DNA of 48,075 nt from assembly GCA_016278615.1 (NCBI GenBank), contig JADQBM010000071.1, positions 1 through 48,075 of the forward strand, given 5' to 3'. Of this stretch, positions 35,941-48,075 are shown one piece after another. Within the stretch, counting starts at the first letter, position 1. The number at the start of each line of letters is the position of its first letter. A program made the translations under genes and the position numbers. This DNA comes from Clostridia bacterium (GTDB lineage Bacteria > Bacillota > Clostridia > Peptostreptococcales > JAAYPU01). The notes beneath the pieces are model-generated. The model saw nothing but the letters and a program-made list of their open reading frames with translations. It was not told where the DNA came from and made no database searches.

Positions 35941-36623
35941 AACATAACCATGGCTCCCGCAGTGGTTCTTTTAGCTAAAGGTAGGGTACATTTAGCAATG
36001 CGGAAATATCGGAGCTCATCATCAGAAATCATTTTGAATTTTTTATAGATTTTAATGGCCGTTCGAGTATTAAAGCTTATATAGTTTTCAATAGAATGTA
36101 ACAGATAGGTGCCGCGATCTACTTTAAATTCATCCGCATACTTATAGGTGCGTTTTACAAATGTTTCAAACTGGCGATGGTTATCTAATAGTCGAGTATT
36201 GGCATGTTGAGGGATTGTCATATCCTGTATAATGTGAAGTGCTGCACCCAAATAGAACATGGAATCATTAAAGTTTCCAGTGTTCCATTCTTTGCGTGAC
36301 TTGATGTAATAGTCAATGCCTAATTCCATGGCGCTTTTCCTTCCGTATAGCCCATCCATCTTGCCTTTTTGAGGATTGTAGAAATGATTTGAGCTCTTAA
36401 AGTCTTGATCTGCCCATACCGCTCCTTTATTTATATCCAGTAAATAGCTATAAAAAAGGTTAAATTCATCTGAGTAGTTATCATTTTTTAGGATATTTAT
36501 GGCATCCAGATTAATAGATTTATGAACTTCGCATTCTGTCTTGATGATGGTTTTCTTTATAGGGTTTGCGATGCCAAAAATAGTGTTTAAAATATGGCTA
36601 TAGGTTGTCTCTAAAACACCCAA
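35919..36623 (-). CDS. zinc-dependent phospholipase C-like protein
   Basis: 234 residues if TTG at 36623 is the start (AGAGGTG 6 bases upstream); GTG at 36632 is the alternative but overlaps that site. The zinc-binding core of the alpha-toxin/PLC family is present: an early HKSINLDA, then WADQDFKSSNHFYNP, AALHIIQDMTIPQHAN with its His-x3-Asp pair, and a later H..FE. The secreted toxins have a signal peptide and a C2-like tail; both are missing, so this is a small intracellular-type relative. The convergent overlap with the previous gene suggests possible antisense coupling. Substrate unknown. Confidence 0.78.
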   Translation of the reverse strand: MGVLETTYSHILNTIFGIANPIKKTIIKTECEVHKSINLDAINILKNDNYSDEFNLFYSYLLDINKGAVWADQDFKSSNHFYNPQKGKMDGLYGRKSAMELGIDYYIKSRKEWNTGNFNDSMFYLGAALHIIQDMTIPQHANTRLLDNHRQFETFVKRTYKYADEFKVDRGTYLLHSIENYISFNTRTAIKIYKKFKMISDDELRYFRIAKCTLPLAKRTTAGAMVMFYKDILL

Positions 36624-36877
36624 TTCAATCACCTCTTAACAAATAGTAATGGGATTATTATTTGCAATTTCTAAGATAATATAATCATTTACGAGTTAAA
36701 GATTAAAGAGCAATTGTTTAAAAGATCTAAAGCTAAAAAATCAAATACATTGTTTTAGGGGTGAATAGCGATATAGAAAAATGGATAAAAAATTTGCTAA
36801 ATACTTAAACTTTATTGAGACATAATATAATGAGAGGGGAAACAGTGTGGGTTTTTTATAATATGAAAGGATAAAAT

Positions 36878-37441
36878 ATGAGAATAGAGAGAAAACCAAA
36901 ACAAATATTATTATATTTGTTTACAATAGCAATAATAATTTTGAGTATAAGTTTTATTTTTCATAGGCAATTTGCTTTTTTTATTAATGCCGTTTTAGTA
37001 TATATTGGGTATTTAATATTCTATTACTTTGAGAAAAAAGGCAGTATTAATACAACTCTTTTAGTGAATGGGTCATTGGTTTTTCTTATTATTTTGCACT
37101 TAGTTTTTGGACAGTATTTAGAATTATATAAAACGAGTTTATATTTTGATAAAGGCCTACATGTAATAGGGTCATTTATAATCTGTTTATTTATTTATCA
37201 AGTCTTAATATCATTAGTTGGAAATGATCTTAGTAATAAGGTTTTAGTTTTCATTCTAATCAGTTCTGTTGGAATAACCCTTGGGGTTCTGCTGGAAATT
37301 CTGGAATTTATTCTTGATATTTTATTTAAAGCAAATAATCAGAAGGGGTTATTAGATACAAATCTTGATTTATTGCTTAATGCTGGAGGCGCTTTTCTTG
37401 CGGGACTTATTATCGTGATGAAGAAAAAGGATGCATTATAA
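36878..37441 (+). CDS. small polytopic membrane protein, DUF2238/YjdF-like
   Basis: 187 residues with five or six hydrophobic helices. Conserved polar residues sit within or beside helices: YFDKGLHVIGSF near residue 88, LLEILEFILD near 138, and LLDTNLDLLLNAGGAFLAG near the C-terminus. This D-x3-H, E-x2-E, D-N-D-L pattern recalls DUF2238/YjdF and VanZ-like proteins, whose roles are uncertain. AAAGG precedes ATG. The protein is on its own between a divergent gene and a structured spacer. Confidence 0.7.
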   Translation: MRIERKPKQILLYLFTIAIIILSISFIFHRQFAFFINAVLVYIGYLIFYYFEKKGSINTTLLVNGSLVFLIILHLVFGQYLELYKTSLYFDKGLHVIGSFIICLFIYQVLISLVGNDLSNKVLVFILISSVGITLGVLLEILEFILDILFKANNQKGLLDTNLDLLLNAGGAFLAGLIIVMKKKDAL

Positions 37442-37677
37442 CCAATGAATTAGAGTAAAATACTTCGAAATAAAATAAATTTTTTTGAATCAATAATACA
37501 ATTAGAGAAGCGTTAATAGCAGCACTTCTGTGTTTTTAAATGCTAATTTTTGTAAGTTTGACCCTGAAATAGCCCAAAATATATGTTATAATTAGAAATA
37601 GGATACAAGAATCTGATGCTTGAACTAATAAAAAGGAGTATGCTATTGGTGAAAAAGTCATTATTTTTTTATGCTGA

Positions 37678-37790
37678 CTCACAACTTTACAATGACATTT
37701 TCATTATAGACAACTCGCCTTTATAACATAAAATAACAAAATAAATAGTGATTTGTTTATGATTTATAAACACTATTGTAAAGTTATGAG
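37678..37790. repeat. nested inverted repeats in a 430-bp gene-poor spacer
   Basis: The spacer 37442-37871 has no convincing gene; one frame of about 26 codons after AAAAGGAG (37631-37638) is the only candidate. CTCACAACTTTACAAT (37678-37693) and ATTGTAAAGTTATGAG (37775-37790) are inverted repeats matching at 15 of 16 positions. Inside lies AATAGTG (37744-37750) with CACTATT (37771-37777), itself enclosing GTTTAT/ATAAAC. The layout fits a small mobile-element remnant, or a leader RNA for the gene at 37872. Confidence 0.5.
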
Positions 37791-37871
37791 GAATTAATTG
37801 GGTTAAATAATCATAATGATGATTATTGCACGTTATTGCTTTGCTGTGAAACATTCAGAGAGGATAATATT

Positions 37872-39215
37872 ATGAATATTTCAGGGAAAACGCCGTTACT
37901 TAGAGCAAAAGAGTTAGAGAAGCACTTAGGGATAAAGGAAATATACTTAAAACTTGAGGGGGCAAACCCTTTTGGTCACAAGAATGATAGAGTTGCCGAG
38001 GTGCTGATTAAAGATGCAACCGCAATGGACAAGAAGGCAATATTAGTTGATGGAACACAAACTTATATTAAATCCCTTGTAGAATATGCCAAAAGAAGTG
38101 AACTAGAAGTTATAATTCCTATTTTTGCCAATGAAAGATGGAAGAAGAAAGAGCTCAAGAACGAAAAACTTGTTGACCTAAGTAAAATTAAATTTGAGAA
38201 TAAGATGGTATTTTTAAGTGATTACTGCAAAGAAAAAAATTATTATAATGGCACGGGATATGACAGTAGACATTTAAGCCATATGGCATTAGAAGAGTTG
38301 GGTGAAGAAATAACAAAAAAATTAAAGGGAGAAGTCAGCTCCGTATTCACACAACTAAGCTATGGATACACTGTTACCAGTCTGTATAATGGCTTTGTAC
38401 GAGAGTGGGTGCAAGGGGATATGGAAAAATACCCGCGGATTTACTCCTGTACCATTCCTAAAGGCAATAAAATATATGACGACTATAAAAAGAATCTACA
38501 GATTGATAATCTTGATCAATATGATGTTAAGCCAAACAGGTATTCTCAGCATTTGTTTACTGATGAAAGCCATCTGATTGAAGAGACTTTGAAAGCAGTA
38601 AGAGATACCAACGGCAGCATTATTTCTATAGATGAAGGCCTCCTTAAGGAAAGTGCTAATTTATTACGGAATAAGGAAGATATCGTTTTATCAACTGAAG
38701 ATGCATATGCATTTGCAGGTTTTTATAAGATGGTGAAGGAAGGCAAAGCTGAGAACGGAAAGCATGTTATTATACTTAATGATGGCAGAAGTGATGTGGA
38801 AATAAAAGAAATAAAAGACTTCAGCGAATATACCCTTAAAGGGCTTACGGATATAGTGGAAGAATGGCTTGTTGAATATGGAGATCCAAGAGATGAGATG
38901 GAGGATGCCGTGGAGAATGCCATTGAGAAGGGATACTTCTTTTTAGCCTATAGAAATGGGGTTCCTCAAGGGGTTTGTGTATTGGTCAATATTGCAGTGG
39001 ATACTTTCTTGGCAACCTATCATTTAGCCTATATTGGAACCAAAGTTGGCAATAAAGGAAGAGGCATTGCTACCAAGCTTATTGAAAGGGCAATTGAAGT
39101 ATCCGAAGGAAAACTGTCCCTCCATGTTGAAATGGAAAACATAAGAGCGAAGAAGCTTTATGAGAAGGTTGGATTTAAGGCTAAATACTTTAGAATGAAC
39201 TATATGGGAGACTGA
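37872..39215 (+). CDS. fusion of a PLP-dependent threonine-synthase/cysteine-synthase-fold domain with a GNAT acetyltransferase
   Basis: 447 residues from ATG 37872 (AGAGAGGA upstream; the frame's first ATG at 37836 has no site). Residues 1-320 follow the fold-type II PLP enzyme order: TPLLRAKELEKHLG, KLEGANPFGHKNDR with candidate Schiff-base K37, and LVDGTQTYIKSLVEYAKRSE. The usual glycine-rich phosphate loop is poorly conserved, so activity is uncertain. Residues about 325-447 are a GNAT domain with the acetyl-CoA loop GNKGRGIATKL and a C-terminal ENIRAKKLYEKVGFK. Possibly one half makes an amino compound and the other acetylates it; this is inference. A strong terminator follows. Confidence 0.8.
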   Translation: MNISGKTPLLRAKELEKHLGIKEIYLKLEGANPFGHKNDRVAEVLIKDATAMDKKAILVDGTQTYIKSLVEYAKRSELEVIIPIFANERWKKKELKNEKLVDLSKIKFENKMVFLSDYCKEKNYYNGTGYDSRHLSHMALEELGEEITKKLKGEVSSVFTQLSYGYTVTSLYNGFVREWVQGDMEKYPRIYSCTIPKGNKIYDDYKKNLQIDNLDQYDVKPNRYSQHLFTDESHLIEETLKAVRDTNGSIISIDEGLLKESANLLRNKEDIVLSTEDAYAFAGFYKMVKEGKAENGKHVIILNDGRSDVEIKEIKDFSEYTLKGLTDIVEEWLVEYGDPRDEMEDAVENAIEKGYFFLAYRNGVPQGVCVLVNIAVDTFLATYHLAYIGTKVGNKGRGIATKLIERAIEVSEGKLSLHVEMENIRAKKLYEKVGFKAKYFRMNYMGD

Positions 39216-39249
39216 TAAATGTAATAAAAACTAGGTTATGTCTTTAAAT

Positions 39250-39286
39250 GCCGGTTAGAGTGAGGAAATGCACTTTAACCGGTTTT
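39250..39286 (+). terminator. terminator after the PLP-GNAT gene
   Basis: CCGGTTAGAGTG (39251-39262) pairs with CACTTTAACCGG (39271-39282), one G-U pair, followed by TTTT. Confidence 0.85.
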
Positions 39287-39380
39287 CTGTTGGGGTAGAA
39301 CTTTTCAAAATTATGCATAGATGTTCCTATTATATTAAATAATAAGATTGAATAAATAATTTTTTTGAAAGGAGCTTTAT

Positions 39381-39728
39381 ATGGGCATTGTAACAAATAC
39401 AACAGATAAATTTCAAGCATGTATAGATGCTTGCGCAAAATGTACGCAAGCTTGCTATGAGTGTTTTCATGCATGCCTCATGGAACCTGACTTAAACGCC
39501 AGGAAGAATTGTGTGAGCATGTTGGTAGAGTGCGCCATGATGTGCCAAATGTCAGTGGGAATGATGTCAATGAATGGACAGTTCTCAAAAGAACATTGTC
39601 AATTATGTGCTACAATTTGTGAAAAATGCGCACAAGAATGTGCCATGTTTAAAGATGATCATTGCATAAAATGCGCGGATATTTGCCGTATGTGTGCAGA
39701 AGAGTGTAGAAAAATGGCAAGTATGTAA
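39381..39728 (+). CDS. four-helix-bundle copper-binding protein (Csp/DUF326 type)
   Basis: 115 residues with 19 cysteines, placed every 3-4 residues along four predicted helices (CIDACAKCTQACYECFHAC; CVSMLVECAMMC; CQLCATICEKCAQEC; CIKCADICRMCAEEC). This is the pattern of cytosolic copper-storage proteins, where the Cys thiols line a helix bundle and bind many Cu(I) ions. No signal peptide, so it acts in the cytoplasm. AAAGGAG lies 8 bases before ATG. No copper pump or regulator lies beside it. Confidence 0.92.
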   Translation: MGIVTNTTDKFQACIDACAKCTQACYECFHACLMEPDLNARKNCVSMLVECAMMCQMSVGMMSMNGQFSKEHCQLCATICEKCAQECAMFKDDHCIKCADICRMCAEECRKMASM

Positions 39729-39744
39729 TGTCTTGGATGGATAA

Positions 39745-39801
39745 GCCCTGTTATATTGCTTTCAGGAATTCTGAAATTGATATAATTAGGGTGTTTTGTT
39801 T
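39745..39801 (+). terminator. possible terminator after the copper-storage-like gene
   Basis: AGCCCT (39744-39749) and AGGG (39788-39791) enclose ATAT/ATAT and TTTCAG/CTGAAA arms, followed by TGTTTTGTTTTT. The stem is interrupted, so confidence is modest. Confidence 0.4.
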
Positions 39802-39825
39802 TTGATGGATTTCAGCAATAATAAC

Positions 39826-39880
39826 TTGACTTTTATGAAGGTTAGAATTATAATTTAATTATATATAATCGATTATATAT
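39826..39880 (+). promoter_or_regulatory. promoter-operator copy A
   Basis: TTGACT (39826-39831), 17-base spacer and perfect TATAAT (39849-39854). Eight bases further on begins the palindrome ATATAATCGATTATAT (39863-39878); the perfect palindrome extends to 20 bases at 39861-39880. The operator covers the expected start of transcription, as for a repressor. It is nearly identical to copy B 156 bases downstream. Confidence 0.8.
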
Positions 39881-39943
39881 AAAATAATTTTCATTTTCTC
39901 CCACTTTTTTTAAATGAAGAAGCACTTTCGAGTGCTTCTTTTG
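39861..39943 (+). ncRNA. putative short RNA made from promoter copy A
   Basis: Transcription from promoter A would begin near 39861 and meet a hairpin with a stable TTCG loop, AAGAAGCACT/AGTGCTTCTT (39917-39940), giving an RNA of about 80 bases. It has no start codon with a ribosome binding site. An unpaired pyrimidine stretch, TCTCCCAC (39897-39904), is complementary to GGGAG-type ribosome binding sites such as the one before the binding-protein gene at 41418. Whether it is a regulatory RNA or only aborted readthrough is not known. Confidence 0.4.
39917..39943 (+). terminator. terminator between promoter copies A and B
   Basis: Ten-base perfect arms around the tetraloop TTCG, followed by a short T stretch (TTTTG). 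Confidence 0.65.
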
Positions 39944-39981
39944 ACTATAACTTAAAAAGTAAGAATGGGGTTAATAATAAC

Positions 39982-40035
39982 TTGACTTTTATGAAGGATG
40001 TACTATAATTTAATTACATATAATCGATTATATAT
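39982..40035 (+). promoter_or_regulatory. promoter-operator copy B for the dehydrogenase gene
   Basis: TTGACT (39982-39987), 16-base spacer, TATAAT (40004-40009), then after eight bases the palindrome ATATAATCGATTATAT (40018-40033). It repeats the text of copy A from about 39970 onwards (AATAATAACTTGACTTTTAT shared). It lies 94 bases before the ATG at 40127. Confidence 0.85.
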
Positions 40036-40126
40036 TATATAAAAAAATGAGGAAAAGGGGGGATACAGAAACTTATTTGGCGAAGAGAACAAATAGTTAC
40101 AGCGATAGAAAGGGGACAAATAACCT

Positions 40127-41077
40127 ATGCAAATAGAGAATATTAATCATATCACAATTATTGGAACAGGCATGATAGGAGCAAGCATGGCAGCTCTTTT
40201 TACAGGAAACGGTTATCCTACTACGATGCTTGCAATTAATGAGCAAGAAAAGAACAACGGTAAAATTCAGTATGATACTTGTTTCCAAGACTTAATTGAA
40301 AAACAACTTGTTACAAAGGAACAGGCAGAGCGTTGTTCCAAATTACTTAGTTTTACTCTTGATTATGCAGATATAGAGAATACTGATTTTATATTTGAAT
40401 GTGTAGTAGAAAAGTTGGAAGTAAAATATAGTGTTTATGAAAAAATAGAAAAACATTGTAAGCAATTTAAAGCACTGGCATCCTCCACATCTGCGTTATC
40501 AGCTGATGATCTGGCAAAGGGCTTAAATAATAATAAGGATAAATTAGTAGTGGCACACCCCTATAATCCACCACATCTTGTCCCTTTTGTAGAAGTTGTT
40601 AAGAACCAGCATACTACAGATGAAGCTGCAAAAATGGTATATGATATATTAGAATCCACAGGGCGAAAAGTAATTATTATGCAAAGAAGTGCACCGGGCT
40701 TTGTTGCAAATAGATTGCAACACGCTCTTCTTCGTGAAGCGCTTTATATCGTTGAGGAAGGGTTGGCTACACCAAGAGATGTAGATAAAGCATTAATGTA
40801 CAGTTTTGCACCAAGATATACGTCTGTTGGTCTTTTTGAGCATCAAGATGCTGCGGGGTTAGACTTGGTAAAAAACATTGAAGATTATTTACTGCCAACA
40901 TTAAGTAACGCAGATAAGACGCCAAATTATATTAATAAATTAGTTAGTGAGCAAAACCTTGGGATGAAGACGGGTAAGGGCATTTATGATTGGCCTAAGG
41001 AAGCACAAGATGATTTTCGTGAAAAGGCCGCAGCGCCGTATCTACGTTACTTTAACTGGGATATTCCTAAAGGGTAA
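40127..41077 (+). CDS. 3-hydroxyacyl-CoA dehydrogenase-family enzyme, L-gulonate 3-dehydrogenase/carnitine-dehydrogenase-like
   Basis: 316 residues. An NAD-binding Rossmann domain starts IIGTGMIGAS (glycines at 13-18). S122, H144 (AHPYNPPH) and E156 (FVEVV) match the catalytic Ser/His/Glu of the family. RSAPGFVANRLQHALLREAL opens the C-terminal helical domain. The HPYNPPHLVPFVEVV form and the single C-terminal domain fit lambda-crystallin-type enzymes that oxidise a 3-hydroxy acid, such as L-gulonate or carnitine, more than fatty-acid beta-oxidation enzymes. It has its own operator (copy B) and belongs to the same putative regulon as the ABC importer and transaldolase. Substrate unknown. GAAAGGGG lies before ATG. 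Confidence 0.88.
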   Translation: MQIENINHITIIGTGMIGASMAALFTGNGYPTTMLAINEQEKNNGKIQYDTCFQDLIEKQLVTKEQAERCSKLLSFTLDYADIENTDFIFECVVEKLEVKYSVYEKIEKHCKQFKALASSTSALSADDLAKGLNNNKDKLVVAHPYNPPHLVPFVEVVKNQHTTDEAAKMVYDILESTGRKVIIMQRSAPGFVANRLQHALLREALYIVEEGLATPRDVDKALMYSFAPRYTSVGLFEHQDAAGLDLVKNIEDYLLPTLSNADKTPNYINKLVSEQNLGMKTGKGIYDWPKEAQDDFREKAAAPYLRYFNWDIPKG

Positions 41078-41110
41078 GTGGCGATGTTTATCTTTTCTTC
41101 CAGATGGATA

Positions 41111-41162
41111 TTGACATCAGAAAATTAAATGATATAATTATATAAAATATAATCGATTATAT
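41111..41162 (+). promoter_or_regulatory. promoter-operator C for the ABC importer operon
   Basis: TTGACA (41111-41116), 16-base spacer, TATAAT (41133-41138), then after eight bases the palindrome ATATAATCGATTATAT (41147-41162). The geometry is the same as in copies A and B. Confidence 0.85.
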
Positions 41163-41417
41163 ATAAACGAATATTATTATTGTTTTAACGTCACGTTAAC
41201 TCACAGAAACGTAATTGGTGGCAGTCGAATGTTGATGTATAATAGCATATAGAAGCTGTAAAAAATGAAGGAACAATTCGAATCTGGAGTTGATATAGGT
41301 AAAGCAACTTTAAAATAGCTCAATGCTTGAGCAGGGGAGGTTTTAGGTAATAAGTTTGGTATTGGAAATTTCAAATCGCTAATTTTTTCAAAATATGTTT
41401 TTCCAGGGAGGGTTAAT
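41163..41417 (+). other. 255-base leader of the ABC importer operon, no gene
   Basis: No frame with a ribosome binding site and believable product was found; the best is a 17-codon frame at 41264 without a site. GCTCA-atgct-TGAGC (41318-41332) is a small hairpin. The leader ends in CCAGGGAGGG, the binding-protein ribosome site. Confidence 0.5.
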
Positions 41418-42710
41418 ATGAAAAAAATACTTGTTCTTTTATTAGCATTAATTTGTGTTATTTCTTTTGTTGGCTGTCAAAGTGCAGAACCAACAACAGA
41501 AACAGAAGAGCCACCAGCAGAAGTAGCAGAAGGAATCAAGGTAGGTCATTTGTCCTATCATACGGGTCCCTTTGGTCATGTAGGTCCTCAATTTGATGGT
41601 GCTGCAAACTTTACATTGGAGTTTGTAAATGAAAATCCACCTCTTGGTCGAGAAGTTTCAATTATTCATCAGGATATTGGGACAATAGGTGAGGGTCAGG
41701 CTGCAAGAAAGCTTGTTGACAGTGAAAAAGTAGATGTTCTTCTTAATGTAGCAGGAGAATATATGTCTTACCGAGACTGGCTTGTAGAATTTATTGCAGG
41801 TAATAATAGACCACTTTTGCCTTCAGTACATGGAGGTGCTATTGATACACAGTATGGAGGAAATGCCGCTGAACCAATTTTCAGAGGTGCTCCTATGGAT
41901 ACAGACCAAGGTTTAGCTACTGCACTTCAGGCACAAACAGAAGGCGCTAAAACTGTTGTTGTAATGGCAGTTGAAAACGACGGAATGCAGATGCAACAAG
42001 ATGCAGCAGTAAAAGCAAGTATCGCCTTAGGAATGGAAGTTTTAGGCGAAATCGATTTCCAACCTGAACAAACTTCTTATAGAAGTGTTGTTAGCAAAGC
42101 TCAAGCTCTTAACCCTGATGCGCTATTAATATTTTGTGCAGCAGAAGACGGTGGCACAATAGTTAAAAATGCTGCTGAAATGGGCATGTCTTCTATAATT
42201 GTAGGGGCAACTGACTGGCTTTTTGTTGAATTTCCAAACACTGCAACTGTAAGTGCATTAGAAAAACACAAGTCAGTTACGGCCGTTGGATTCACATATG
42301 CAGATGGTGCGGCATGGGATTTCTATAAAGATGCATGGGAAAGCTCAGAGTACTCAGAATTAACTGAAGCTTCAAACTCATATACATTACAGTATTATGA
42401 TCTATTAAATGTAGCGATGCTAGCCATAGAAAAAGCGGGTTCAACAGATATCGAAGCATGGGTAACAGCTATGCCAGAAGTATCCATGGGACCTGGTACC
42501 AAAGTTTATACTTATGCAGAAGGTATTGATGCACTTCGAAACGGTGAAGAAATAGATTACGAAGGTGTAACTGGAGAATTCAATTATAGTGAAACCGGAG
42601 TAGTTGGTGGACTTTATGGTGTATTCGAGTGGAAAGATACTGAAAATTTAGAAAGAATTGCTACTATTGAAGGTAAGGTAATATTGGATTTAGCTAGTGA
42701 AATAGATTAA
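41418..42710 (+). CDS. ABC importer substrate-binding lipoprotein (branched-chain amino acid type, LivK-like)
   Basis: 430 residues. A lipoprotein signal ends in SFVGC (Cys20), followed by an acidic Thr/Glu/Pro-rich linker. The mature part is a type I periplasmic-binding fold of the LivJ/LivK kind: VGHLSYHTGPFGHVG for the ligand-contact start, VDVLLNVAGEYMS, and QPEQTSYRSVVSKAQALNPDALLIF. These receptors serve amino acids, urea, amides or aromatic acids, so the ligand cannot be read from the fold. Context with a dehydrogenase and a transaldolase points to a carbon source rather than an amino acid. It heads a five-gene transport operon controlled by operator C. Confidence 0.92.
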   Translation: MKKILVLLLALICVISFVGCQSAEPTTETEEPPAEVAEGIKVGHLSYHTGPFGHVGPQFDGAANFTLEFVNENPPLGREVSIIHQDIGTIGEGQAARKLVDSEKVDVLLNVAGEYMSYRDWLVEFIAGNNRPLLPSVHGGAIDTQYGGNAAEPIFRGAPMDTDQGLATALQAQTEGAKTVVVMAVENDGMQMQQDAAVKASIALGMEVLGEIDFQPEQTSYRSVVSKAQALNPDALLIFCAAEDGGTIVKNAAEMGMSSIIVGATDWLFVEFPNTATVSALEKHKSVTAVGFTYADGAAWDFYKDAWESSEYSELTEASNSYTLQYYDLLNVAMLAIEKAGSTDIEAWVTAMPEVSMGPGTKVYTYAEGIDALRNGEEIDYEGVTGEFNYSETGVVGGLYGVFEWKDTENLERIATIEGKVILDLASEID

Positions 42711-42732
42711 TTAACAATATATAATAGTTTAT

Positions 42733-42789
42733 GAGCACCCGCTTCCCAGAAGTGAATTAAAAGAAATACACCTGGGAGTGGGTGTTCTT
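42733..42789 (+). terminator. intercistronic hairpin after the binding-protein gene
   Basis: GAGCACCCGCTTCCCAG (42733-42749) pairs with CTGGGAGTGGGTGTTC (42772-42787) with one bulge. Only a short T tail follows, so it probably acts as a partial terminator or mRNA stabiliser, giving more receptor than permease. This is common in such operons. Confidence 0.7.
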
Positions 42790-42866
42790 AAAGAATAACT
42801 GTTGGGGATACTAAATAAAAGGAAACAGAACAACGACAAAAAAATTGTAGAGTAAAGGAGTTACCG

Positions 42867-43727
42867 ATGACCGTTTCAACTTTCTTATCAAGTACTTTGG
42901 TATTAGGACTGCTTGAGGCAGCTCCCCTTGTTCTAGCAGCAGTAGGATTTACTTTAATTTTCTGCCTGAATGGTTTTATAAATGTTGCTTATTCAGAAAA
43001 CATAACATTGGGCGCATATTTTGCAGTCATATTTAATTCAATTTTAGGCTGGAATTTTTATCTTTCTATAATTCCTGCTGCATTACTATCAGGCGTAATA
43101 AGTGTTCTGACTTATCTTCTGTTATTTAGACCTGCTTTTAAAAGAGGTGTAGGCAAGACGGAATTGATAATACTATCTGTAGGATTATCTTATTTCATAA
43201 GGTATGGGTCAAAACTATTATTTGGAAATGATCTTTATAATTTTAATTTTTCAAGCACTTCGTACCTATCATTTTTTGGTATAGGAATAACCACTGTTCA
43301 GCTGGCTTGTATAGGATTAGTAGTGATTATTTCATTAGGAATCTATCTCTTTATATACAAGACGAATTATGGTGAAAGAATGCGAGCACTTGCTGATAAC
43401 GAAGAACTCGCAATGATAAGTGGAATAGATCCAATAAAAGTCTCAATTTTGATCTGGTTTATTGCCGGAACTGCAGGAGGTCTTGCAGGACTCTTTTATG
43501 GTGCTTTTTCTTTTGTTAGTTCTTCATTAGGCTGGAATCTTATTTTAATTATAATAATGGTGACTATCGTTGGAGGAATAGGAAGCGTGAGAGGTGCTTT
43601 AATTGCAAGTGCTTGCGTAGGTATTATCACTTCAGCTGTGACCCTTTTATCAAAACCATTATATGGAGAGATTGTTTTACTGATCATCTTCATAGGAATA
43701 TTGAAACTAAGAAAGGTGAGGGTATAA
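42867..43727 (+). CDS. ABC importer permease (LivH-type)
   Basis: 286 residues with about eight hydrophobic helices. LAAVGFTLIFCLNGFINVAYSE near the N-terminus and GERMRALADNEELAMISGIDPIKV in the cytoplasmic loop are the LivH signatures; the latter contacts the ATPases. It forms the channel with the LivM-type protein next to it. AAAGGAG lies before ATG. The genes are separated by three bases. Confidence 0.92.
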   Translation: MTVSTFLSSTLVLGLLEAAPLVLAAVGFTLIFCLNGFINVAYSENITLGAYFAVIFNSILGWNFYLSIIPAALLSGVISVLTYLLLFRPAFKRGVGKTELIILSVGLSYFIRYGSKLLFGNDLYNFNFSSTSYLSFFGIGITTVQLACIGLVVIISLGIYLFIYKTNYGERMRALADNEELAMISGIDPIKVSILIWFIAGTAGGLAGLFYGAFSFVSSSLGWNLILIIIMVTIVGGIGSVRGALIASACVGIITSAVTLLSKPLYGEIVLLIIFIGILKLRKVRV

Positions 43728-43730
43728 ATT

Positions 43731-44633
43731 ATGGAACAGTTATTTTCAGGATATATGATATATTCTCTATCTTTTCTTTTGATATTTATAGCTCTAGCAA
43801 CAATACTGCATCTTCAGTTTAGTATAGGTGGAATTGTAAACTTTGGAATTGTTGGATTCTGGGGCTTAGGAATGTATGCATTTGCATTATTAAACTTAAA
43901 ACTTAATATCCCATTTGTGCCAGCGGTTTTATTGGCAAGTGCTTTAACTGGAATTGTTTCCATGGCTCTAGGTCGTATCATTTTAAATCTTGACGATCAG
44001 GCAGTTTTAGTAGGAACCCTTGCATTTGCAACTATTATAGAATATTTGGCCACAACAGAAAAATGGTTAACCAATGGTGTAATGGGATTCGGTACAATTA
44101 AATTTCCTTTTGATTTAGGAGCCAACACATTGTTTGTTTATTTCCTTGTTGTTCTAGTGTTCTTGATTTTATTGATGTTTTATGTTTCTAAGATTAAAAC
44201 GTCCCCCTATGGCAGATTGCTTTTAAGTATTAAGGATAATGAGATTCTTTCGCAAAGCTTGGGTAAGCCTACATTTAGACACAAAATTATTTTCTTTACC
44301 GTTACTTGTTCACTAATTGGATTTTTTGGAGCCATGACTGCTCCTTTATATAATTATATTTTCCCCAGAATGATTGGACCTGGGATTACTTTTACAATTT
44401 GGATCGCATTGATGCTTGGCGGTAGAAAGAAGCTTTTGGGAGGATTTATTGGGATATTGGCGACCATTGGATTATTTGACTATGTCATTGAAACAGTAGT
44501 ACCAATTCCAACACAATATGCAGAAATGGTTCCTAATGTTAAATTTGCATTATATGGACTTACACTTATGCTTGTTCTCATGTTTAGACCTCTAGGTATA
44601 CTGGGAGATAAAAAAAGGGAGGTTAAAGGATGA
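43731..44633 (+). CDS. ABC importer permease (LivM-type)
   Basis: 300 residues with eight to ten hydrophobic helices. FSIGGIVNFGIVGFWGLGMY and SPYGRLLLSIKDNEILSQSLG match the LivM membrane core and coupling loop. It ends with FRPLGILGDKK. It overlaps the following ATPase gene by four bases (ATGA). Confidence 0.92.
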   Translation: MEQLFSGYMIYSLSFLLIFIALATILHLQFSIGGIVNFGIVGFWGLGMYAFALLNLKLNIPFVPAVLLASALTGIVSMALGRIILNLDDQAVLVGTLAFATIIEYLATTEKWLTNGVMGFGTIKFPFDLGANTLFVYFLVVLVFLILLMFYVSKIKTSPYGRLLLSIKDNEILSQSLGKPTFRHKIIFFTVTCSLIGFFGAMTAPLYNYIFPRMIGPGITFTIWIALMLGGRKKLLGGFIGILATIGLFDYVIETVVPIPTQYAEMVPNVKFALYGLTLMLVLMFRPLGILGDKKREVKG

Positions 44634-45394
44634 GAGAAAAAGTACTACACTTAAGAAATGTAATAAAAAGATTTGGGGGAAGAACAGTGGTAGACATAAA
44701 GGATATCACTTTTGGTACCCATGGTATTGAGGGGTTAATCGGTCCAAATGGTGCAGGTAAAACGACTTTAATAGGCTTGATTAGCCGTAAGGTTAGTATG
44801 GACCAAGGGCAGATCCTTTATTATCAAGATAAAAATGAAATGGATATATCTAAAAAAAGTTTAGACGAGCTTTCAAGAATGGGTCTTGTGAGAACAAACC
44901 AGATTATTCAGGATTTTGAGAGTCTTAGTATAAGAGATTCATTACTTCTTTCACTTGCAAATTCCAAGCATGAAAAATTTTATAATATTTTCAATGAGAA
45001 AGAATTAAGAAAAAACACAGAAAAGGAAATTGAAAAATATTTAGATTATTTCAATTTTGAAGATCCTGATGGACATGCACTTTCAGCAGGAGAAAAAAAA
45101 CTTTTAGATATCATTCGTTGTATGGTGCTAAAACCAAAATTTCTTCTCATGGATGAACCCACCGCAGGATTACCCCATGATCAGACTGATAAGGTCATTG
45201 AATTGATGAAAAAAAAGACAAAAGAAGAAGGCATGGCTATATTGATAGTAGAGCATGATTTGGATCTTATCTGGACTGTTTCGGAGAATGTCTACTTCAT
45301 GTCAGAAGGAGAAATACTTATTAAAGGTACCCCAGATGAAATCAGAAAAAATAAAACAGTTATCAATAAATATATGGGAGAAAGCGAATGCTAA
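44630..45394 (+). CDS. ABC importer ATPase (LivG-type)
   Basis: 254 residues. Walker A GPNGAGKTT, Walker B FLLMDEP and the switch His in VEHDLDL are present. The signature reads LSAGEKK rather than LSGGQ, which is common in LivG-type proteins. It pairs with the LivF-type ATPase to energise the two permeases. It overlaps the next gene by seven bases. Confidence 0.93.
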   Translation: MREKVLHLRNVIKRFGGRTVVDIKDITFGTHGIEGLIGPNGAGKTTLIGLISRKVSMDQGQILYYQDKNEMDISKKSLDELSRMGLVRTNQIIQDFESLSIRDSLLLSLANSKHEKFYNIFNEKELRKNTEKEIEKYLDYFNFEDPDGHALSAGEKKLLDIIRCMVLKPKFLLMDEPTAGLPHDQTDKVIELMKKKTKEEGMAILIVEHDLDLIWTVSENVYFMSEGEILIKGTPDEIRKNKTVINKYMGESEC

Positions 45395-46092
45395 AGATAA
45401 ATGATATTAGAAGCGGATATGGAGATGTGACTGTACTCCATGGTTTAAATATTGAAGTAAAGCATGAAATTTATGCGATTCTTGGAGCAAATGGTGCTGG
45501 CAAGAGTACCCTTATGAAGACCATTGCAAAGGTTTTGCCCCTTAAAACCGGAGAAGTCTATTTCAAAGATGAAAATGTCTCAAGCTTTACCCCTTATCAG
45601 ATTGCTGCAAGAGGTTTGGCTTTTGTTCCCCAAGAAGGACAAATATTTCCGAAAATGACAGTCTTAGAAAATCTTTCCGTTGGCGGTTTGCTCCTTGATA
45701 AAAAATCGAAAAAAGAAAAGAAAGAAAAAATGGAAGAGATATTTGATGTTTTTCCGGATATCGTCCAAAGGCTCAATCAAAAAGCCGGAAGTCTTAGTGG
45801 TGGGGAAGTTCAAATGGTTGCAGTTGGACGTGCACTGATGCAGAATCCGTCGCTGATTTTGCTGGATGAACCTACTTCAGGATTATCTCCTAAATATGTA
45901 GATAACTTTTTCTACAAAATTAAAGAGATACATGAAAAAAAAGGTGTAAGTGTTATTATTACTGAACAAAATGCTGCAAAAGCACTGGAGATTGCCGATA
46001 AAATTATGGTATTGACCCTTGGGAAAATACATTTGATTAAAGATGCAAAAAACGTAGACATGTGTATGATCAAGGAAGGTTATAGAATCTGA
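45388..46092 (+). CDS. ABC importer ATPase (LivF-type)
   Basis: 234 residues. Walker A GANGAGKST, Q-loop PQEGQIFP, signature LSGGEVQ and Walker B LILLDEPTSGL are all intact, with ITEQNAAKAL as the H-loop region where Gln-Asn replaces His, as is usual for LivF. It is the last gene of the transport operon; a terminator follows. Confidence 0.93.
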   Translation: MLKINDIRSGYGDVTVLHGLNIEVKHEIYAILGANGAGKSTLMKTIAKVLPLKTGEVYFKDENVSSFTPYQIAARGLAFVPQEGQIFPKMTVLENLSVGGLLLDKKSKKEKKEKMEEIFDVFPDIVQRLNQKAGSLSGGEVQMVAVGRALMQNPSLILLDEPTSGLSPKYVDNFFYKIKEIHEKKGVSVIITEQNAAKALEIADKIMVLTLGKIHLIKDAKNVDMCMIKEGYRI

Positions 46093-46137
46093 TATATCTT
46101 AAAAAAATACGAAGAAGCAATAACTAAAATTGACTAA

Positions 46138-46170
46138 ATGCTGTTTTCATTTTATGAAAGCAGCATTTTC
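46138..46170 (+). terminator. terminator of the ABC importer operon
   Basis: ATGCTGTTTTC (46138-46148) pairs over 11 positions, one G-U, with GAAAGCAGCAT (46156-46166), then TTT. Confidence 0.8.
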
Positions 46171-46224
46171 AAATGACATTGATAAGGAATGCAAGACGAA
46201 TAATTGGAAATACTATTAAAAGAA

Positions 46225-46277
46225 TAATCGATTAAACATATAATATATTGACTTTTGAATACTTTTTTTGGTATCAT
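46225..46277 (+). promoter_or_regulatory. half-conserved operator D and promoter of the GntR regulator
   Basis: TAATCGATTA (46225-46234) is the 10-base core of the regulon palindrome, with flanks that differ from the other sites. TTGACT (46248-46253) and TATCAT (46272-46277, spacer 18) lie downstream. Here the operator core precedes the -35 box instead of following the -10, so control, if any, may be weaker autoregulation. Confidence 0.55.
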
Positions 46278-46311
46278 GTGTTATTAGGACACATACGGAA
46301 AGGAACTTGAA

Positions 46312-46974
46312 ATGACAAGTATCAAAAGAAAACCACTAGAAAAGCGTCCGTTATATCGCGATGAAATAAAAAACACCATTAGAGAAGCAATTGTGGCAGG
46401 TGATTTAAAACCAGGAGATCGTATTATTGAAACCCAATGGGCAAAAGAATTAGGTGTGTCTCAATCACCAGTCAGAGAAGCAATTAGAGAGCTAGAAATG
46501 ATAGGTTTAGTTGAAAACATTCCATATCAAGGTTGTTTTGTGCGAAAAGTAACATTAAAAGATATGAGGGATTCGTATAGAGTGCGTACGTACTTAGAGA
46601 TGCTAGGAATCCAGGATGCGGTAGAAGGTGCAGATGAAGATGACTTAAAAGAAATTCATCATGTTTATAAAGAGATGGAAACAGCTGCAAAGAATAACGA
46701 TTTCAATTTATATATTGAAAAAAATGAGTTGTTTCATGAAAAAATCATGTGCATTTCTCAAAATAATCTTTTAATCCGTTTATGGAAACAAAGTAATATA
46801 CAGGATTCAACTTATTTTGGCACCCAATTTTCAGACCAATCTTTAGAAGCGCTGTCTATTCGGCACAAAGATTTATACGAAGCAATTGTAGAGAGAGATT
46901 TAAATCGTGCAAAAGAAGTGATATATCTTCATTTTGAAGAACTTATTGAAGAATTAGAGAGACAAGAGAAATAA
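46312..46974 (+). CDS. GntR-family regulator, FadR/FCD subgroup
   Basis: 220 residues. The winged helix-turn-helix (residues about 12-80) has LKPGDRIIETQWAKELGVSQ followed by SPVREAIRELEMIGLVE. Residues 85-215 are the all-helical FCD ligand domain, with RVRTYLEM, NELFHEKIM and RHKDLYEAI, where His residues usually hold a metal and the ligand is a small acid. FCD regulators typically repress sugar-acid or organic-acid catabolism until the substrate binds. Its site between the importer and transaldolase, and the five palindromes around it, make it the probable regulator of this locus. AAAGGAA precedes ATG. Confidence 0.93.
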   Translation: MTSIKRKPLEKRPLYRDEIKNTIREAIVAGDLKPGDRIIETQWAKELGVSQSPVREAIRELEMIGLVENIPYQGCFVRKVTLKDMRDSYRVRTYLEMLGIQDAVEGADEDDLKEIHHVYKEMETAAKNNDFNLYIEKNELFHEKIMCISQNNLLIRLWKQSNIQDSTYFGTQFSDQSLEALSIRHKDLYEAIVERDLNRAKEVIYLHFEELIEELERQEK

Positions 46975-46990
46975 TTAATGATTGTTAAAC

Positions 46991-47017
46991 CAAATACCCT
47001 GCAAGGGGTATTTTTGT
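46991..47017 (+). terminator. terminator after the GntR gene
   Basis: AAATACCC (46992-46999) pairs with GGGTATTT (47006-47013) around six bases, and T residues continue to TTTTTGTTTTT. Confidence 0.85.
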
Positions 47018-47105
47018 TTTTGATAAGACTTTAACCATTTATACTAGTGGTGAAATATAGAGTATGAAGTTTAAAACAGCAAGGTGTTAAAATCTAAATG
47101 CAATA

Positions 47106-47159
47106 TTGACATAAATAAATAAGATGATATAATTAAATAAATAATATAATCGATTATAT
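47106..47159 (+). promoter_or_regulatory. promoter-operator E for the transaldolase gene
   Basis: TTGACA (47106-47111), 16-base spacer, TATAAT (47128-47133), then after ten bases the palindrome ATATAATCGATTATAT (47144-47159). It matches sites A to C in sequence and in layout. Confidence 0.85.
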
Positions 47160-47256
47160 ATAAACGATGTATATCAAAGGCAATTGTTCATCTTATTAAA
47201 CAGCTATAACATAGTGGTTGTTATATATCGCAAGATGATTGAAAGGAGTATTAAAA

Positions 47257-48075
47257 ATGACACATCCCTATAAAAGTTCTTTACACCAAATGGCAAATAC
47301 TACGCCAACAGATTTCTGGAATGATTCCTGTTCTATTTCGGAATTAGAATATGCCATGGAATATGGTGCAGTAGGAGCAACTACCAATCCGGTTATTGTT
47401 GGAGAAGTATTAAAAAAAGAATTGGAAGCATATGTTGACAGAATAAAAGAACTCATAGAAGAAATGCATGATGCAACAGAAGATGATATCGCTTGGAAAC
47501 TCAATGAAGAGATGGCAGTCGCTGGATCAAAGTTATTAGAACCTATCTTTAATGAATCAAAAGGTCAAAAAGGCAGAATCTCCATTCAGACTAACACAAA
47601 ATATTATAAAAATACCAAATTAATGACAGAACAAGCAATCTATTTTGGAACCCTTGCACCCAATATTCAAGTAAAAATGCCTGTAACCAAAGCGGGAATT
47701 AAAGCCTTTGAAGAAGCAACATATCAAGGTGTCAGTATCAACGCTACTGTAAGCTTCAGCGTATCTCAAGCATTAGCGGTTGCAGAAGCAGTAGAACGAG
47801 GACTCAAAAGAAGAGAAAAAGAAGGTAAAGATACCTCAATGATGCATCCGGTATGTACAATCATGGTAGGAAGAGTAGATGACTGGCTTAAAGTCGTGGC
47901 TGAGAGGGACAATATCATTGTAGATCCAGAGTGTTTGGAATGGGCTGGCGTAGCTGTAATGAAAAACGCTTATAAGATATACAAGGAAAGAGGGTACAGA
48001 ACCCAACTTTTAGCAGCTGCATATAGAAATCATCATCAGTGGACGCAGTTTATTGGAGCAGATATGGCCATGACG
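47257..48075 (+). CDS. transaldolase-family enzyme (3' end beyond the right edge)
   Basis: 273 codons without a stop. Motifs of the transaldolase/fructose-6-phosphate aldolase fold are clear: N-terminal FWNDSC with D23, GATTNP with N44, the Schiff-base lysine K140 in IQVKMPVTKAG, N162 in INATVSFS, R206 in VGRVDDW and R257 in AAYRNHHQW, the last two corresponding to phosphate contacts in TalB. In GRISIQTNT the residue at the TalB Glu96 position is Gln111, as in fructose-6-phosphate aldolase, hinting at plain aldol cleavage rather than transfer. It has its own operator E and lies beside the GntR gene. GAAAGGAG precedes ATG. Substrate unknown. Confidence 0.88.
   Translation, partial: MTHPYKSSLHQMANTTPTDFWNDSCSISELEYAMEYGAVGATTNPVIVGEVLKKELEAYVDRIKELIEEMHDATEDDIAWKLNEEMAVAGSKLLEPIFNESKGQKGRISIQTNTKYYKNTKLMTEQAIYFGTLAPNIQVKMPVTKAGIKAFEEATYQGVSINATVSFSVSQALAVAEAVERGLKRREKEGKDTSMMHPVCTIMVGRVDDWLKVVAERDNIIVDPECLEWAGVAVMKNAYKIYKERGYRTQLLAAAYRNHHQWTQFIGADMAMT

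Follow-up and report, generated by a model that had tools for sequence, protein, structure and literature searches.

Analyses of a 48,075-nucleotide stretch of DNA from a Clostridia bacterium (hereafter the window) indicated that a 16-bp palindrome, ATATAATCGATTATAT, probably serves as the operator for a small set of FCD-type GntR repressors, among them GntR1, encoded in the window, and GntR2, encoded on a second contig. Based on sequence comparisons, we assign a probability of about 0.82 to this reading, in which repression would occur by blocking of RNA polymerase. The window is contig C68 (36% G+C) of a 3.5 Mb genome, and searches were performed by pattern and by region.

The initial annotation of the window had placed the palindrome at 39863, 40018, 41147, and 47144, and its 10-bp core, TAATCGATTA, at 46225, 5' of the GntR1 gene. 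All four copies of the 16-mer were found to be exact and the core was present at its assigned position. No further copies of the 16-mer with three or fewer mismatches were found in the window, and a shuffled-sequence control gave a mean of 0.98 and never reached four; the core was observed five times in the window versus 0.08 expected. The palindrome is devoid of any GT or AC, and TATAAT is present within it on both strands. The operators, their promoters and an associated hairpin were as follows:

39826..39854, + strand: promoter P1, TTGACT-N17-TATAAT, 11/12 consensus matches, duplicated at 39982
39863..39878, + strand: operator 1, exact 16-mer palindrome
39916..39942, + strand: strong terminator-like hairpin GAAGAAGCACTTTCGAGTGCTTCTTTT between P1 and P2; GAAGCACTTTCGAGTGCTTC, followed by TTTT
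39982..40009, + strand: promoter P2 of the dehydrogenase gene, TTGACT-N16-TATAAT
40018..40033, + strand: operator 2, exact 16-mer palindrome, 5' of the dehydrogenase gene and kept in all relatives
41111-41138, + strand: promoter of the importer operon, TTGACA-N16-TATAAT
41147..41162, + strand: operator 3, exact 16-mer after the 41111-41138 promoter, 5' of the importer operon
46222..46237, + strand: weak operator GAATAATCGATTAAAC, upstream of the gntR1 -35 box
47106-47133, + strand: promoter of the transaldolase gene, TTGACA-N16-TATAAT
47144..47159, + strand: operator 4, exact 16-mer after the 47106-47133 promoter, 5' of the transaldolase gene

The distances from the -10 box to operators 1 to 4 were 8, 8, 8, and 10 bp, respectively, so that the placement originally described, 8-10 bases past the -10 box of near-consensus promoters, held for all four exact sites. 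Both TTGACA-N16-TATAAT promoters had 12/12 consensus matches. A general promoter scan revealed no overall enrichment (34 found versus 34.6 expected), and its four top-scoring matches in the stretch were precisely the promoters preceding the palindromes. The operator centers were at approximately +9.5 to +11.5 relative to the predicted transcription start, and such a location, immediately 3' of where strong promoters start transcription, is consistent with repression through polymerase block. The annotation was amended in two respects. Its sites and positions were right, but not its count of four units, as 39863 and 40018 represent a duplicated promoter-operator, 155 bp apart, serving one dehydrogenase gene. 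In addition, the core does lie 5' of the GntR gene, but it precedes the -35 box (TTGACT at 46248) by 10 bp and is centered near -54 from the predicted start, not over it. With this different geometry, the gntR1 site may have a role other than simple repression.

Searches of the whole genome showed that the sites were confined to a single cluster. The exact 16-mer occurred four times, always in the window. Of the five copies of the 12-mer ATAATCGATTAT, only one, on contig C90 (34838), lay outside the window. The 10-mer TAATCGATTA was found 14 times, with six copies in the ~15 kb cluster versus eight in the remaining genome (Poisson P = 2.5e-12), and 8/8 of the outside copies fell inside open reading frames (ORFs). 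Near matches to the 16-mer (two mismatches) elsewhere in the genome numbered 18, versus 8 for a reversed control. The initial annotation had stated that many copies at unrelated genes would refute its proposal; as the copies outside the cluster were those eight 10-mers, all within ORFs, this was not the case. The confinement of the operator to the cluster and its placement over promoters are those of a local repressor regulon.

Contigs C68 and C90 were considered neighbors that carry one cluster because the transaldolase gene begins in the window and ends on C90 (by tblastn, query residues 1-273 matched the window and 275-357 the C90 end). On C90 the transaldolase end is followed by an XdhC-like factor, GntR2 (64% identical to GntR1), operator 5 (TAATAATCGATTATAT), which is 3' of the GntR2 gene, and a three-subunit molybdenum hydroxylase. 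The whole cluster comprises the dehydrogenase, ABC (ATP-binding cassette) importer, GntR1, transaldolase, XdhC-like maturation factor, GntR2, molybdenum hydroxylase, and a metallohydrolase. In one relative (L039/L055) the two cluster halves are on one contig, and the gene order of the first half differs. Flanked by the genes for the metallohydrolase and a ModABC-like transporter is a 123-residue ORF (L038:3697-4068), which matches only the C-terminal part of transketolases and represents a fragment or small subunit.

A scan of genome collections with both GntR paralogs identified four loci, including one in Sinanaerobacter chloroacetimidivorans BAD-6. The comparison of homologous loci suggested with the initial annotation bore out its expectation, as the operator was kept at orthologous promoters in five other Firmicutes genomes. 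At L039-L042 and L054 the exact 16-mer was found 5' of the dehydrogenase gene and 5' of the unit after gntR1, that unit being the importer in L039, the transaldolase in L041, and gntR2 with the molybdenum hydroxylase in L040, L042, and L054. Alignments of these upstream regions showed all 16 bases to be invariant along with the -35/-10 hexamers, whereas the flanking sequence had diverged. Nearly all the 12-mers in the five other genomes were in this cluster or 5' of a co-regulated sugar importer. L040, L042, and L054 had a weaker copy 5' of the gntR1 -35 box, in the same placement as at 46222 in the window. These genomes also have an rbs-type sugar importer with two sites, separated by 61-69 bp, on its 5' side. 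The neighbors of this importer, as named from their translations, are a DeoC-like aldolase, a Gfo/Idh/MocA-type oxidoreductase, a sugar isomerase, and a PfkB-type kinase, and its operon is followed by a third GntR paralog that is 51-53% identical to GntR1. The importer type varies among relatives (liv/urt versus rbs). A variant site, GTATAATCGATTATAG, was observed in two relatives (L075:564 and L078:2100), where it is 5' of a pyridoxal phosphate (PLP) enzyme and of another, second operon for a molybdenum hydroxylase; these sites apparently belong to an outlying part of the regulon.

The distribution of the site among genomes linked it to the GntR proteins. Intergenic 16-mers were found in 3/394 genomes of the order, and these were the same three having GntR orthologs at a threshold of E<=1e-45 (P about 1e-7 for the coincidence). 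A fourth 16-mer match among the 394 genomes was inside an ORF. The 16-mer of G229, single and within an ORF of an AT-rich contig, was rejected as a chance copy.

These findings bear on the alternative that the palindrome is read by a regulator from outside the cluster (e.g., another GntR, a LacI or an Rrf2-type protein) and that the gntR genes are mere targets. Auto- and cross-regulation of regulators are frequent, and site conservation alone names no protein; however, the sites were confined to genomes having these GntR orthologs. Furthermore, in G266, which has a homolog of the dehydrogenase (47%) and is without a close GntR ortholog, the 12-mer was absent from the whole genome. In G517, a phylum-level relative with a genome of 2.4 Mb, the sole 12-mer, AGATAATCGATTATTT, follows TTGACA/TATAAT and precedes the start of a gntR gene whose product is 40% identical to GntR1. 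The neighboring gene set there is different from that of the window, and gntR is the only site-adjoining gene in common with the window cluster. Based on these observations, we consider an outside regulator improbable.

In G295, the core is in the region between divergent genes of a cluster that has a metallohydrolase, a dehydrogenase (52%), a GntR, and a molybdenum hydroxylase; contigs C13 and C152 of this genome apparently share the region, so its three matches are probably two sites. In both G295 (L105) and G517 (L107), translations indicated that the site and GntR are accompanied by a split two-protein phosphoenolpyruvate (PEP)-utilising enzyme and an HPr-kinase-like protein, which replace the importer and transaldolase.

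Several points weigh against GntR1 and GntR2 as readers of the palindrome. The cluster genes are inherited together, so that their co-occurrence within this order does not constitute evidence independent of the remaining cluster, an objection that the G266 and G517 results loosen. G295 keeps the core site beside a GntR that is only 34% identical. The operator also departs from the FadR-subfamily consensus TKGT/ACMA (GT-N2-3-AC), for which BioR and NanR are given as exceptions (PMC4494728); because such exceptions exist, the missing consensus lowers only the claim of a canonical operator. Lastly, GntR1 and GntR2 are indistinguishable as the acting regulator, and the operator may be common to both. 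The annotation's assignment of the GntR protein at 46312 as the repressor was in keeping with the confinement, conservation, co-occurrence and G517 results, but GntR2 is an equally good candidate. As the comparative tests all agree, the interpretation of a GntR protein as the likely repressor is strongly supported at the level of sequence.

GntR1 is an FCD-type regulator, its Pfam scores being 52.9 bits for GntR (cut-off 27) and 74.1 bits for FCD (cut-off 24.3). An identity as PhnR (TIGR03338) was rejected, as the score of 112.2 bits was below the equivalog cut-off of 271.5. In Atu1419, Arg45 reads G3 of ATGTATACAT, and a G to A change there abolishes binding (PMC7797058). In a HMMER alignment, Gln51 of GntR1 occupies the position of Arg45 in the recognition helix, and when the operators were aligned on their dyads, the palindrome had A at position 3, where Atu1419 needs G. 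Gln was present at the Arg45 position in all inspected palindrome-linked GntRs, including those of G517 and G295, and Arg in 19/19 other FCD-type helix-turn-helix (HTH) domains, although this sample was small and drawn from the nearest matches only, a further point against the reading. According to the FadR-subfamily survey, Gln prefers A (PMC4494728). Together, these data suggest that Arg to Gln and G to A represent a matched specificity change, in which Gln would contact the adenine. On balance, we favor the view that these proteins form a distinct FCD-type GntR branch in Clostridia-like Firmicutes, characterized by the Arg to Gln change, an AT/AT core (TAATCGATTA) in place of GT/AC, and two to three cluster paralogs sharing an operator and a multi-operon regulon.

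We propose that a GntR1 or GntR2 dimer on the operator, centered at about +10, would block RNA polymerase and thereby repress the dehydrogenase, ABC importer, transaldolase, and molybdenum hydroxylase units. The repressor would be released when its FCD metal site binds a ligand, probably a carboxylic acid, that is a substrate or an intermediate of the pathway, and the weaker copy 5' of the gntR1 -35 box would adjust the regulator level. We infer physical binding, repression rather than activation, the effector, and the acting paralog from the sequences. A GntR1 or GntR2 that binds but activates, or does both, with the +10 sites serving another purpose, seems very unlikely: the gntR1 site near -54 resembles the position (-60) from which Corynebacterium glutamicum GntR1/GntR2 activate ptsG, but sites of those proteins centered at +2 repress (PMC2230225), and four to five sites here are at about +10 after consensus promoters, which should need no activator. 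Equally slight is the chance that the palindrome is a promoter part, a second and bidirectional -10 box, because, despite the TATAAT within it on either strand and a best promoter match at L054 16920 that uses it (GTAACA-N17-TATAAT), most sites already have a 10-12/12 consensus promoter 3-10 bp upstream, the CG center and the invariance of all 16 bases across genomes are unneeded for a -10 box, and no other promoter of the genome carries the element.

The duplicated promoter-operator has additional features. The region 39862-39945 folds at -15.7 kcal/mol (z = -4.2), and the hairpin at 39916..39942 was not listed by a terminator scan because its U run is short. P1 and the hairpin, ending near 39942, would delimit a short RNA of ~75-80 nt that could be interpreted as a relic, decoy, or small RNA. 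No copy of this P1-hairpin segment (39849-39942) was seen ahead of the dehydrogenase gene in relatives, and an Rfam search of 36000-48075 gave no matches. The 39863/40018 pair may allow looping, by analogy with the Atu1419 sites. Directly 5' of the duplicated promoter is a gene for a cysteine-rich DUF326 protein (39381-39728), and the ORF at 37836-39215 has a PLP-dependent lyase-like domain (PALP) fused to a GNAT acetyltransferase domain. At the second promoter class, an AAACGA box a few bases 3' of the operator was kept in 7/7 aligned regions (41147-41176, 47144-47173, L039 8829, L040 8846, L041 2867, L042 8815, and L054 6005) and may be an extra half-site.

The genes of the cluster in the window were as follows:

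40127..41077, + strand: NAD-dependent dehydrogenase, 3-hydroxyacyl-CoA dehydrogenase superfamily (Pfam 3HCDH_N 6.8e-44, 3HCDH 5.4e-20)
41418..42710, + strand: importer substrate-binding protein (Peripla_BP_6)
42867..44633, + strand: two importer permeases (BPD_transp_2)
44630..46092, + strand: two importer ATPases, LivG/UrtD-like and UrtE/LivF-like
46312..46974, + strand: GntR1, FCD-type GntR regulator (Pfam GntR 3e-14, FCD 1.8e-20)
47257..48075, + strand: transaldolase-family protein, truncated at the end of the contig, with its last 83 residues on contig C90

The dehydrogenase matched 3-hydroxyacyl-CoA dehydrogenases and FHMPC dehydrogenase, and the molybdenum subunit matched 4-hydroxybenzoyl-CoA reductase and xanthine dehydrogenases, none of them above a curated cut-off.

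Literature searches with the operator sequence and GntR, the 12-mer, and the gene combination found no description of this regulon. A 2015 survey of the FadR subfamily covered 634 regulators, only one of which was from Clostridia (PMC4494728), and the present assignment provides an operator and target set for an FCD-type GntR group in a phylum with few known. Through the site, a set of co-regulated genes (dehydrogenase, importers, transaldolase, molybdenum hydroxylase, and metallohydrolase) is delimited, and with it a pathway for which a substrate can now be looked for. The paired Arg to Gln and G to A change makes the specificity code of the family testable by single substitutions.

The regulon is a well-bounded new case of a known type of system, with an operator that is unusual for the family. 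The best NCBIfam match of GntR1 was to the PhnR-type GntR family (TIGR03338, E 2.5e-32), but the score was below the cut-off and the cluster is without phosphonate genes. BioR, also a FadR-subfamily regulator, has an AT-rich palindrome without a GT/AC core (TTATMKATAA; PMC4494728), but its operator sequence and pathway (biotin) are different. Atu1419 of Agrobacterium fabrum (FCD, VanR group; PDB 6z74) recognizes a perfect but short palindrome in promoters, and looping has been shown for paired sites of it that are separated by 190 bp (PMC7797058). It is likewise an FCD-type GntR with a palindrome at promoters, and its HTH aligns gap-free with that of GntR1; however, its operator ATGTATACAT has a G read by Arg45, whereas TAATCGATTA has an A and GntR1 has Gln51. 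The GntR1/GntR2 pair of C. glutamicum comprises FCD-type paralogs with one common operator and gluconate as effector, whose sites near +1 repress a catabolic regulon that includes a transporter and one of whose upstream sites activates (PMC2230225). The system described here has two FCD-type paralogs as well, and a common operator and repression are proposed for it. The C. glutamicum sites fit TNGTNNNACNA within one to two mismatches, which ATATAATCGATTATAT does not, and the paralogs of C. glutamicum are not in one cluster, whereas here they are encoded in the same cluster.

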